NCBI GenBank assembly: GCA_003212795.1
Contig: QCOV01000002.1
Coordinates: 186,001-250,000 of the forward strand
Length of the DNA stretch: 64,000 nucleotides
DNA from: OCS116 cluster bacterium AG-435-F03
Lineage (GTDB): Bacteria > Pseudomonadota > Alphaproteobacteria > MED-G09
Direction of reading: 5' to 3'
The translations under genes and the position numbers were made by a program. Shown here piece by piece: positions 30,193 through 34,965 of the stretch (position 1 is its first letter; each line of letters opens with the position of its first letter). The notes under the pieces were generated by a model. That model was not told where the DNA came from. It was given only the letters and a program-made list of their open reading frames with translations, and did no database searches.

Positions 30193-30843
30193 TTACTGTA
30201 TAGATTCTATGCCCTTATTTGTCGATAGGGCCATTTCGGTCATTGCAATTAAAAGTTCATTTCTCTTCTGAATATCTTCAGCTTCTAATAAGGCCTGTTT
30301 TTCTTCTGCGCTATAAGGGCTTAGTGAGCATAAAGAGTTTACGAGTGTTTCTGTGGGCGAACCTTTTACAGCTTCCCAATCGATTTGAAGATTATTTTTT
30401 TCCAAATATCTTTTCAAAACATCTAAAAGCTTGTCCCTATTAGCCTTATCTTGATTAAAACCTGGAGTTAAATCATTTTCAAAATCTTCATATGAAACTT
30501 TGACTTGTCTATAAGGTGTTAATGTATCTAGTTCTTGAGTAACCTTATATCTACAAATACCGTTTAAAGTAATAATAAATCTTGAGTCTGAAAGTTCTGT
30601 AAACGATGTAATTTTACCAAGGCAACCTATAGAATATAATTGATTTTCATTACTTTCTTGAGTTTGTATCATTCCTATTAATCGATCAGAGGATATAGAA
30701 TTATCAATCATTTCTAGATATCTTGGTTCAAATATATTGAGTGGTAACTGGGATCTAGGAAGAAGAAGAGCGCCATTCAAAGGAAAAATTGATATCTTAC
30801 TAGGTATTTCTTCAATCTTTTTATATTTGTATAAACTGTTCAT
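30193..30843 (-). CDS. Lon substrate-binding (LON N-terminal) domain protein
   Basis: Stand-alone LON_substr_bdg domain protein, without ATPase or protease domains. Pattern [29 protein letters not shown] at the start is typical. I choose the ATG at 30843 ([10 protein letters not shown]), 216 residues and 1 base after the cnoX stop; the in-frame Met at 30915 lies inside cnoX. Function of stand-alone versions is unknown. Its place between cnoX and Trm112 is a conserved alphaproteobacterial arrangement. Confidence 0.88.
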
Positions 30844-30844
30844 T

Positions 30845-31765
30845 CTAACTAAACAAAATTGAAGAAAGCTTCTTCCTTCCTTCGATAGCAAGCTCATCAG
30901 CAGGACCAAGAGCATTAAAAATTTCTAAAAGATTTTTTCTTGGCGCTTCATCATTCCACATTCTATCTTTTTCAATTATGAACAAAAAGTGTGAGATTGC
31001 ATTTTCATAATCCCCTTTTCCCATAAGGCTCATAGCAATACTAAATCTTATTTCGTGATTGTCGGGATTTTCTCCAAGCTTTTTTTCAAGGTCAGTTATA
31101 TCAGCAGCATCAACTTCATTATCTTGTGCCTTTTCAAATATTTCAATTCCTGATTTTGCTGACATAAAGTCTTGGTTCTTTTCTTTTTCAGGACTTTCTA
31201 TGTTTGATAATATTTCTTTTGCTAAATCAACTTCATTAATTTTTAGGTAGCAATTTGCTAGCATAGATAATGCTGTAACATTGTCAGGTTCTGATTGAGC
31301 TATTTTTCCAAAAACCTCCAGTGCTTCATTATAATTCTTATCACTAAACAGAGCTTTACCTTGTTCTATAGCTATATCATTGTCAGAAGGTCCATTAAGG
31401 GCGGCAAGTTTTTCAACAAAAGTTTTTATAGATGACTCTGGCTGCACACCAACAAAACCATCAACAGGCTGACCATTATGAAAACCCAGAATTGCTGGAA
31501 TAGATTGTATTTGTAATTGTTGAGATATCTCAGGATAGTCATCAATATTCATTTTTGTTAATGCGACTCTTCCATTGGATGAAGCAACAAGCTTATCTAG
31601 GATAGGACCAATTTGTTTGCATGGTTCACACCAGGGTGCCCAAAAATCTACTATGACTGGAGTTGATTTTGATTTTTCAATTACTTCTTGAACAAAATTT
31701 TCATTTGTTAAGTCTATAGAATGAAGATTTTCCACTTCGTTTTGACTTGATTGATCAAAATTCAT
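30845..31765 (-). CDS. cnoX: CnoX/YbbN-type thioredoxin with TPR domain
   Basis: Thioredoxin-fold co-chaperone linking redox stress to protein folding. Thioredoxin domain (about 15-125) with active-site-like FWAPWCEPCKQIGP, so both cysteines are present, then TPR-like helices (about 130-300: LFSDKNYNEALEVFGKIAQ, NVTALSMLANCYLK). 306 residues, family length. It lies 3 bases after the RHH-PII gene and one base before the Lon-N gene. Confidence 0.9.
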   Translation of the reverse strand: MNFDQSSQNEVENLHSIDLTNENFVQEVIEKSKSTPVIVDFWAPWCEPCKQIGPILDKLVASSNGRVALTKMNIDDYPEISQQLQIQSIPAILGFHNGQPVDGFVGVQPESSIKTFVEKLAALNGPSDNDIAIEQGKALFSDKNYNEALEVFGKIAQSEPDNVTALSMLANCYLKINEVDLAKEILSNIESPEKEKNQDFMSAKSGIEIFEKAQDNEVDAADITDLEKKLGENPDNHEIRFSIAMSLMGKGDYENAISHFLFIIEKDRMWNDEAPRKNLLEIFNALGPADELAIEGRKKLSSILFS

Positions 31766-31768
31766 TTT

Positions 31769-32263
31769 CTAGAGTGCGTCTTCCTGTGTTTCGCCTGTTC
31801 GAATTCTTATTGCTCTATCTACATCAGTAATAAAAATCTTACCATCGCCAACCTTACCTGTCTCAGAAGTTTTTGATATAAGGTCTACTACTTCTTCAAC
31901 TTTTTCTGTAGGAACAACAAGTTCAATTTTTATCTTTGGCACTTCAGTTGTTTTGTATTCTGCTCCTCGATAAATTTCTGTTTGACCTCTTTGACGACCA
32001 AACCCTTTTATTTCCGTTGCAGATAAACCTTCAATTCCAATAGTAATAAGTGAATCTCTTACATCATTATATTTATGCGGCCTTATAATCGCAGTTATCA
32101 TTTTCATGGTTTCCCCCTTCTCTAATCTAAGAGCAATTTTAACTAATCTTCTTATCGACTCGGAATGCGATGGAATATCTGTTTGATTTCTTCTCCACTT
32201 ATCCACCTCTTGTCTAAATTCGGAAGAGGCCACTAACTGTATTCTTTGATCTTGCTTGTTCAT
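31769..32263 (-). CDS. Ribbon-helix-helix domain fused to nitrogen-regulatory PII protein
   Basis: One uninterrupted frame joining two known modules. The first ~50 residues (QRIQLVASSEFRQEVDKW, then SESIRRLVKIALRLEKGET) have the strand plus two helices of MetJ/Arc-type RHH DNA-binding proteins. From residue 53 it is a full 112-residue PII protein: MKMITAIIRPHK start, T-loop GQTEIYRGAEYKTTEVPK with the modifiable Tyr, and GKVGDGKIF. The internal ATG at 32107 is preceded by GGGGGAAACC, a good SD, so free PII could also be made. Start at 32263 chosen over 32278. PII senses ATP/ADP/2-oxoglutarate; no glnA or amtB is adjacent. Confidence 0.85.
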   Translation of the reverse strand: MNKQDQRIQLVASSEFRQEVDKWRRNQTDIPSHSESIRRLVKIALRLEKGETMKMITAIIRPHKYNDVRDSLITIGIEGLSATEIKGFGRQRGQTEIYRGAEYKTTEVPKIKIELVVPTEKVEEVVDLISKTSETGKVGDGKIFITDVDRAIRIRTGETQEDAL

Positions 32264-32306
32264 ATTTTTATTATACATAAGAAAGATTAATAGTTAAGTA
32301 AGTTTG

Positions 32307-32335
32307 TTTACATCTTGATAACTTTCAAATATTGT
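32307..32335 (+). promoter_or_regulatory. Promoter of tRNA-Gly
   Basis: -35 TTTACA (32307-32312), 17-base spacer, -10 TATTGT (32330-32335). The predicted start is about 5 bases before the mature tRNA 5' end. Confidence 0.55.
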
Positions 32336-32346
32336 AAGTTTCTCAA

Positions 32347-32421
32347 GCGGGTGTAGCTCAGTGGTAGAGCATCACGTTGCCAACGTGAGGGTCGTGAGTT
32401 CGAATCTCATCGCCCGCTCCA
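32347..32421 (+). tRNA. tRNA-Gly (anticodon GCC)
   Basis: Full cloverleaf: acceptor GCGGGTG pairs with CGCCCGC, D arm with GTAGCTCAGTGGTAGAGC, anticodon stem TCACG/CGTGA enclosing loop TTGCCAA (anticodon GCC), T arm with GTTCGAATC. CCA is encoded at 32419-32421. A T-rich run follows (CTTTTTATT) and may end transcription. Confidence 0.97.
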
Positions 32422-32479: not shown

Positions 32480-32644
32480 TTAAGCAACATTATTATATTT
32501 AATGCCTCTATATTTAAGTTCTTTTTGGACAATATTAATTTTTTCAATGTTATTATTATGCTTAATGCCTCTATAAAGACCTTCTTTTAAAGGCATGCAT
32601 GTTTCAACTGCTATATCTCTATTTCCTCTATATATTCTATTCAT
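32480..32644 (-). CDS. YRG-repeat microprotein B (DUF4278-like)
   Basis: 54-residue gene read from the minus strand: starts MNRIYRGN, contains three spaced YRG units (IYRGNRD, LYRGIKHNN, KYRGIKYNN) and ends VA. It begins one base after the stop of its paralogue (TAAGATG), with the SD AGGAG inside the end of that gene, so the two are translationally coupled. The YRG repeat pattern resembles DUF4278, a small family known mainly from cyanobacteria; that match is from memory of the motif. No membrane segment or signal peptide. Function unknown. Confidence 0.7.
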   Translation of the reverse strand: MNRIYRGNRDIAVETCMPLKEGLYRGIKHNNNIEKINIVQKELKYRGIKYNNVA

Positions 32645-32645
32645 C

Positions 32646-32792
32646 TTAAGCTCCTCTATATTTAAGTTCGTCTCTGTTTATTTCATTTTTTTCAACAGTA
32701 TTGTTGTGTTTAACACCTCTATAAGTGCCTTCATTATTGTGATTTCTTTCCTCAACATTAATGTTTGTATTTCCTCTGTAGATCTTTTCCAT
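32646..32792 (-). CDS. YRG-repeat microprotein A (DUF4278-like)
   Basis: 48-residue paralogue of microprotein B: MEKIYRGNTN..., TYRGVKHNN, and a final KYRGA. The start at 32792 is supported by a strong SD (AAAGGAGA) six bases upstream; a longer in-frame start at 32849 has no SD. It ends right after the third YRG where microprotein B continues with IKYNN. At DNA level the two share the segment CCTCTATATTTAAGTTC (32504 and 32654 regions). Asn-, Lys- and Glu-rich. First gene of a two-gene leftward unit divergent from the cobalamin riboswitch. Confidence 0.72.
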   Translation of the reverse strand: MEKIYRGNTNINVEERNHNNEGTYRGVKHNNTVEKNEINRDELKYRGA

Positions 32793-32904
32793 TTTAATCT
32801 CCTTTATATGTATAATGTATAACTTACACATAATATGTATATTACTCACTAAAATGTCAACCCCCTTTAACTTTTTTCTTGTTATTTTTTTAATAACAAA
32901 TAAA

Positions 32905-33144: not shown

Positions 33145-34965
33145 ATGTTTGTCATTATTTTTATTTTTCTAATTTTTATTTCACCTTTGAATGCTCAGGA
33201 ATCAAGTAATTTTTCTATTCCAGAAGAAATAATTGTTAAATCAACAAGATCTGAAACTAATATTTATCAATTGGGTGGTTCAGTAGATATTATTACTTCA
33301 GAGCAAATTAAGAAAAGTGGTTTTAATTTTGTAAATGAAGCTCTTCAAACTATTCCAGGTTTGTATATTAGTCAAAATGGTGCTTTAGGCGGAACTGCTA
33401 CAGCTAGGATTAGAGGAGCAGCAAGTGGTCAGACTTTAGTTTTAATTGATGGTGTTTCAGTTTCTGACCCATCAACCCCTGGCGGTGAGTTCGACTTTTC
33501 AAGTTTATTGAGCTCTAATATCGAAAGAATTGAAATTTTAAAAGGTTCTCAATCAACATTATGGGGCAGTGACGCTATTGGAGGTGTTATTAATATAATA
33601 ACAACTAGTGAAGCAATCGGTCCAAGTATTAAATTGAATACAGAAATAGGCTCTTTCAACACACAAAAAATTGGTGCTGATTTGAGATATTCAAATACGG
33701 TTCATAATTTATATCTATCTTATAATCAGTTTAAATCAGATGGTATTTCAAAGGCAGACAAAAGTGACGGCAATTCAGAGAAAGATGGAATAGGCAGTAA
33801 ATCTTACTTAATAAAAACAGATCATAAAATTTCTGGATTTGAAATATCTACTAACCTTAATTACAGAGAATCCGATATTGACTATGATAGTTTTGGATTT
33901 GTAACTGGAGTTACTGATGGTGATGAAAATACAAAGGGCAGACAAATAAACTGGGCCCTAGAAGCAAAAAAATCTTTTTTAGATGATCGTTTAACAAACA
34001 CATTTTCCCTTTCTGAGTCTGAGATTGACAGGAAATATTATACGAATGGAGTAGAAAATTTTTCAGCAAAAGGTAAAAGAAGTTTTGCAAGATATATTAT
34101 TAATTACAATTTTAACGAAAATAATTTCTTTACCTTTGGAGCTGAGGCAGAGGAGTCATCTACATTTGATGATGATTTTGAAACTGAATCATTATTTTTC
34201 CTTTACGAGGTTATACCTCATGAAGATTTAGGCCTCTCTTTTGGTTTAAGAGAAGATAAAAGAGATAATTTACCAAGTGAAGAAACTCCTAAGGTAACAG
34301 CTTATTATAATATTAATAATAATTTACGCCTATCAGCTAATTGGGGCGAGGGGTTTAAATTACCAACAATATTTCAATCTACATTTTTTTGCTGCGGAGC
34401 AGACAAACCAAACAATAATCTGCTTCCAGAAACTAGTGAGGGATATGAGGTTGGCTTAACTTATGAATCAAATGAAAGAGATAATAGTTTCAAGTTTATT
34501 TATTTTGATCAGGAGATTAGTAATATGATAGATTTTTCATTTAGCCTTGGTGCTTATGAAAATTTAAAACTTGTTAACTCCGAAGGTTATGAATTTAATT
34601 TCGTATCTATTATCACTGATAATATACTTTTATCGGGAAGCTACTCCAAAACAGATAGCACAAATGAAGCAGGTATCAGGCTTATTCGATTGCCAGAAGA
34701 AAAAGCAAACTTAAATTTTGATTTATCTTACGGACTTAAAAATAAAATTTTTGTATCATTCTTTTATAATGGTGATGAAACTGACCCAAGAGGAATTGTC
34801 AAAAGCTGGATTAGATCTGATATAAATTTTTCTAGAAAAGTGAATGATAATATTAGAATGTATTTAAAAATCAAAAATATTTTCGATGAAAATTATCAAG
34901 ATATATACGGTTATGGAACCGAAGAAAGATCATTCAATTTAGGTGTATCATTGGATATTAATTAA
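33145..34965 (+). CDS. btuB: TonB-dependent receptor, BtuB-like (vitamin B12 uptake)
   Basis: Outer-membrane gated channel. Signal peptide (about 1-17, ending PLNAQE), TonB-box-like EEIIVKSTR, plug domain with [27 protein letters not shown] and [20 protein letters not shown], then a 22-strand barrel ending in the aromatic/hydrophobic strand [11 protein letters not shown]. 606 residues, close to E. coli BtuB (614). Substrate assignment rests on the cobalamin riboswitch directly upstream. btuF/C/D are not in the window. Converges with purH with a 4-base overlap. Confidence 0.9.

Follow-up and report, generated by a model that had tools for sequence, protein, structure and literature searches.

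Does a single bacterial frame join a DNA-binding module to a PII nitrogen sensor, and could such a protein act on transcription itself? Few signalling proteins are as widespread as PII; in the systems covered by the reviews consulted here, it acts by contacting other proteins. A preliminary description of the window (the whole 64,000-nucleotide stretch of DNA analysed here, from OCS116 cluster bacterium AG-435-F03) had claimed that a ribbon-helix-helix (RHH) domain is fused in frame to a PII protein. If the claim and its functional reading are true, the fusion would offer a single-protein route from 2-oxoglutarate and energy status to transcription, and a nitrogen regulator that seems to be shared throughout a streamlined marine lineage. 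One would then have to ask how a DNA-binding module that works as a dimer can sit on a sensor that works as a trimer.

A conserved frame joins the two modules

The fusion is encoded on the minus strand (Table 1). The frame first described, 32278 to 31769, does run through 169 amino acids with zero internal stops, but its start is better placed further in: every relative has a conserved MNKQDQ or MKKQDQ start (M-x-K-Q-D-Q-R-I-Q), and ATG 32278 falls inside the promoter, flanked by its -35 and -10 elements. The true start is thus probably ATG 32263, giving a protein of 164 amino acids. The fusion itself is borne out, as the same 164-residue frame recurs in relatives, and a stop codon between the modules, sought in these relatives, is absent from all of them. 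An assembly error, a missing stop or a frameshift was considered as the source of the fusion and rejected, given the same frame in 14 genomes.

Table 1. Features of the fusion locus (positions in the window)
Feature	Coordinates	Strand	Remarks
rhh-PII fusion gene	31769..32263	minus	164 aa + stop; one open frame and conserved start in 14/18 genomes
RHH module, residues 1-46	32126..32263	minus	kin of 50-60 aa phage/prophage RHH proteins; two predicted helices
6-residue linker, residues 47-52	32108..32125	minus	length fixed, sequence variable; overlaps SD-like GGGGG at 32113-32117
PII (GlnB/GlnK) domain, residues 53-164, 112 aa	31772..32107	minus	internal ATG 32107; PF00543
sigma70-like promoter of fusion gene	32270..32297	minus	TTAACT-16-TATAAT; -35 starts 32297, -10 ends 32270; 10/12 matches; position conserved in relatives
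Divergent promoter of tRNA-Gly	32307..32335	plus	TTTACA-17-TATTGT; best-conserved stretch between the two genes
tRNA-Gly (gcc)	32347..32421	plus	divergent neighbour in every relative scanned
ybbN-like thioredoxin, TPR-like C-terminal part	30845..31765	minus	syntenic in all relatives compared
LON substrate-binding-domain protein	30193..30840	minus	next gene in conserved cluster; listed ORF extends to 30915, scanned portion from 30840

The search for the RHH-PII architecture in other genomes, proposed at the outset, found it across the order: in 14 of 18 genomes and three genera, at 79-99% identity, and in all six genomes that are at least 90% complete. The order consists of uncultured marine Alphaproteobacteria whose public records go under the names PS1 clade, OCS116 cluster, MED-G09 or 'Rhodobiaceae' MAGs. 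True loss in the four remaining genomes was rejected; three of them (G002, G004, G006) are without a syntenic ybbN, in the fourth (G014) the contig ends inside ybbN, and the four absences are assembly gaps. Beyond the order, a sample of about 680 genomes (289 of the class and 398 of the phylum, with some overlap; ORFs were read for the class hits) yielded no further fusion, in a search that a strongly diverged RHH-PII could escape; stand-alone RHH relatives were the only matches to the RHH part in these samples. Apparent plasmid fusions in Sphingomonas and Paracoccus (residues 18-164) were discarded, as their annotation gives ordinary PIIs of 112 aa with their own start. Phage records held no fusions; the matches there were to the PII part, apart from a single weak one to residues 31-100 (25.7%).

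Between genera, the fusion retains 79-86% identity, against mostly 35-75% for neighbouring genes, and the recurrence of its frame is far beyond chance. Both modules are under strong purifying selection, with pN/pS values in well-diverged pairs (pS 0.6-0.9) of about 0.04-0.14 for the RHH module and 0.03-0.18 for PII. In the linker pN/pS rises to about 0.86, yet the length is always 6 residues. The low pN/pS in each half, together with this constant length, indicates that both halves are maintained as one protein.

The N-terminal module belongs to a family of phage-type RHH proteins

The RHH assignment is supported by the family of the module rather than by its sequence alone, since its homologues match PHROG 4738 and RHH_1 while the module itself is below threshold. 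Run on its own against Pfam and NCBIfam, the module had zero RHH model matches, and none to RHH_1 above the gathering score. Its family alignment has 44 sequences, of which 41 hit PHROG 4738 ('transcriptional repressor') and 19 hit Pfam RHH_1 (best E=5.3e-5). A profile that included stand-alone relatives retrieved 69 loci from IMG/VR, with ORFs of a median 56 aa and the consensus RFQMRVSxxFLxxIDDWRRxQPDLPSRAEAIRRLV. Alignment of the module to classical RHHs by hhalign gave 28% probability and E=0.0006 for a six-sequence set, mostly entered by hand. NikR was the sole RHH protein among the weak solved-structure (PDB) matches of the module profile, through its RHH domain and at a non-significant E=0.63.

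The module comprises a ribbon, QRIQLVAS, followed by helix A (about residues 14-25) and helix B (about 33-46). The ribbon residues R7, Q9 and V11 are invariant in the fusions and shared with the phage relative L130; by the geometry of Arc and CopG they would be expected to face outward to DNA, alternating with buried residues. A similar ribbon, QRLQIVAS, is common to L130 and two further relatives (L131 and L037). This likeness and the phage or prophage setting of the relatives suggest that the module probably has a phage-type regulator as its ancestor. Proteins of the PHROG 4738 type, which are 50-60 aa long and about 35-55% identical to the fusion module, stand alone or carry other C-terminal parts, and none was found with PII. 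The fusion also suggests that core metabolic control has taken in a domesticated RHH module of phage type.

Two observations concern these relatives themselves. Three on phage contigs (L171 223-942, L176 2001-2687 and L186 2001-2696; 229-240 aa in total) carry long C-terminal parts that resemble each other and are not PII. The stand-alone relative at L037 1474-1647 (57 aa) is identical to L130 from IMG/VR and lies among more small RHH-like ORFs, apparently in a prophage regulatory region.

Modelling of the monomer with AlphaFold2 (37 sequences) gave a mean pLDDT of 77, with about 82-87 for the RHH helices and about 52 for the ribbon strand, which is unpaired. The low value is what one would expect if the strand needs a dimer partner, and is no proof that it does. 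An earlier model built from 14 sequences was poor, and a mixed alignment (A8) was dropped because PIIs were misaligned onto the RHH part. When the model was used in a fold search, the lists were filled by PII, covering residues 51-164 only.

Could the RHH be a mere dimerisation or anchoring device, with the fused PII acting on protein partners such as NtrB, ATase or AmtB, and with DNA binding absent or incidental? PII proteins normally work via partners (PMC6243067), and residue 33 of the fusion is His, against Arg in about 90% of the phage family, both of which would fit such a device. We nevertheless consider it improbable, as the ribbon face does not vary among the fusions, the RHH core is as constrained as PII, and pure oligomerisation would not require exposed ribbon residues to be kept.

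A complete PII domain beside a classical Ntr system

The C-terminal part matches PF00543 with E=1.5e-27 (96.3 bits against a cut-off of 25; residues 58-163 of the 169-aa form), its alignment to solved PIIs covers the full 1-112 with E down to 2e-44, and the best Foldseek match of the model is E. coli GlnK, at 54% identity. The earlier observation of an intact T-loop Tyr and nucleotide-binding motifs extends to all tested nucleotide, 2-oxoglutarate and uridylylation residues: the equivalents of Gln39 (Q91), Arg47 (R99), Tyr51 (Y103), Lys58 (K110), Lys90 (K142) and Arg101/103 (R153/R155) are invariant in the 14 fusions and shared with ordinary PIIs. In these respects the protein is like GlnK and GlnB. 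It differs from them in its 52-residue N-terminal extension, in having no amtB or glnA neighbour (an absence that the preliminary description had remarked on, and which holds at this locus), and in its T-loop tip, which beside Tyr51 reads KTTE(V/I) in all fusions and mostly x-V-D/N-F-L in ordinary PIIs. Replacement of F11 by H is another family-specific change in the fused PII. The curated NCBIfam cut-offs for a GlnK or GlnB equivalog were not reached (148 against 181 bits for NF007946; 140.5 against 202 for NF008111).

In a tree of PIIs, which included two E. coli sequences entered by hand, the fused PIIs fall on a long stem (0.84) among the amtB-linked (GlnK-type) PIIs of Alphaproteobacteria and not with their own GlnB, their exact position being weakly supported. 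The window's own genome encodes exactly two PIIs, the fusion and an ordinary PII beside a GlnII-type glutamine synthetase, and two copies of amtB; none of the amtB loci read has a PII alongside. Across the order, GlnD was counted in 13 of 18 genomes and AmtB in all 18, and a single strong sigma54 activator is present, which in the own genome adjoins a histidine kinase and looks like NtrBC. The gene for the ordinary PII, glnB (beside glnII in the window's genome), has a sigma54-type site, TGGC-N7-TTGC, just upstream in each of the five PS1 genomes checked (at G000:C1 near 313900, L207, and at L210, L213, L215 and L217), in contrast to the sigma70-like promoter of the fusion gene. The presence of GlnD, AmtB, the NtrBC-like pair and the glnB site points to a classical Ntr system alongside the fusion, and the fusion seems to occupy the place of GlnK.

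This position also bears on a reading in which control is exerted by location and not by direct allostery. A GlnK-like fusion would dock on AmtB at high nitrogen and would be released as a DNA-binder under nitrogen limitation. GlnK docking on AmtB via Arg47 is established (PMC6243067), the equivalent of this channel-plugging residue (R99) is invariant, AmtB occurs in all 18 genomes of the order, and the fusion is the sole GlnK-type PII of the own genome. With the tip near Tyr51 altered in all members and the linkage to amtB lost, we regard this sequestration as unlikely, if the least unlikely of the alternatives.

Transcription and a putative internal start

The promoter of the fusion gene was found in a scan that returned 4 sites in the region against 2.6 expected. 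In the window's genus its -10 element ends about 7 bases upstream of ATG 32263, so the fusion mRNA may be nearly leaderless.

The internal PII start (ATG 32107) has GGGGG five bases upstream, as originally noted. Its duplex with the anti-SD is calculated at -10.8 kcal/mol, a value that none of the 288 in-frame internal ATGs tested across the window undercuts, and the value for the full-length start is +0.9, i.e. little or no SD. Among the other linker types the internal SD reaches -4.5 to -8.8 (within the top 2-16%); its spacing is less ideal in some of them, and in the genus with the SGDSET linker the SD is badly spaced. The internal Met is invariant in the fusions. These features suggest that free PII may also be made from the internal start; with only about four independent linker types, they are suggestive and not conclusive.

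The same features could be taken further, with the internal ATG supplying most of the PII, and the full-length RHH-PII being either a minor product or one that serves autoregulation only. The strong internal SD, the near absence of one at the first start and the invariant Met would all fit. We judge this division of the frame to be very improbable, since the modules are unseparated by any stop, frameshift or length change in 14 genomes, the RHH module is under full-strength selection, and some linkers position the SD badly.

A candidate one-component regulator

We favour, with fair but not high confidence, the interpretation that the fusion is a one-component, nitrogen- and energy-responsive DNA-binding regulator, in which a phage-type RHH has been joined to the N-terminus of a GlnK-lineage PII. 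Conservation across three genera, fixed linker length and synteny, and a pN/pS in the RHH module as low as that of PII support it, as do the invariant ribbon face, the PHROG 4738 and RHH_1 matches of the family and the intact PII effector residues. Further support comes from the surrounding GlnD, AmtB and NtrBC-like pair, from the placement of the fused PII, one of only two, among amtB-linked PIIs, and from the internal SD, which is strong in the window and recurs with the other linkers.

Against this interpretation stand the sub-threshold score of the module, the non-significant NikR match, the unpaired ribbon in the model and the dimer (RHH) and trimer (PII) symmetries that must be reconciled, as well as an upstream-motif search that identified no operator or target gene for the fusion. 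The strongest conserved upstream block, gacaatatttgaaag...gtaaacaa, was rejected as an RHH operator because it is the tRNA-Gly promoter on the opposite strand, and the shared motif TTAACTATTA was not found upstream of amtB or glnB as a regulon site.

In the proposed mechanism, the full-length form would be translated only weakly from its start, where an SD is slight or absent. Its PII domains would trimerise and bind ATP/ADP and 2-oxoglutarate, and Tyr51 may be uridylylated by GlnD. Its RHH modules would pair, each pair forming a two-stranded ribbon for DNA binding. One example of a possible assembly is two trimers bridged by three RHH dimers. The effector state would then rearrange the RHH heads and change DNA affinity, and free PII from the internal ATG would mix into trimers, tuning the number of DNA-binding heads per trimer. 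Whether PII is in this way itself the transcription factor, with 2-oxoglutarate, ATP/ADP and uridylylation passed directly to RHH heads whose number is set by internal-start PII, we put forward more tentatively than the general reading, as a possibility that we would not yet back.

The nearest logic is that of NikR, which combines an N-terminal RHH with a C-terminal small-ligand sensor of ferredoxin-like (beta-alpha-beta) topology. The fusion shares this arrangement of an N-terminal RHH and a C-terminal ferredoxin-fold sensor, and differs in the sensor itself, which is a PII (PF00543) for ATP/ADP/2-oxoglutarate where that of NikR is a nickel-binding, ACT-like tetramer; no NikR family match to the fusion was found in Pfam or NCBIfam. 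In cyanobacteria, PII status is relayed to transcription through PII-PipX-NtcA and PlmA (PMC6243067, PMC5083789). There PII acts via separate co-activators and regulators, whereas the DNA-binding-type module of the fusion is covalently attached. We found no paper that joins PII or GlnB with ribbon-helix-helix, in a search of largely open-access literature.

Gene neighbourhood

The fusion stop and the ybbN-like start are separated by 3 bases (31765-31771), and the ybbN-like gene is probably an operon partner of the fusion. In the relatives compared the order is tRNA-Gly(gcc) (divergent), rhh-PII, ybbN, LON domain, FAD monooxygenase and FtsK-like. The cluster thereby links a nitrogen sensor with a LON-domain protein and a protein of thioredoxin-TPR type. 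With respect to anti-phage defence, zero PADLOC matches were obtained. Just past the tRNA-Gly gene, at 32480-32850 on the minus strand, are two small adjoining ORFs with YRG repeats, one of which matches DUF4278 at 6.7e-06 (above the cut-off) and the other at 0.0005 (below it). A TonB-dependent receptor lies past the tRNA-Gly gene on the side opposite the fusion, at 33145-34965.
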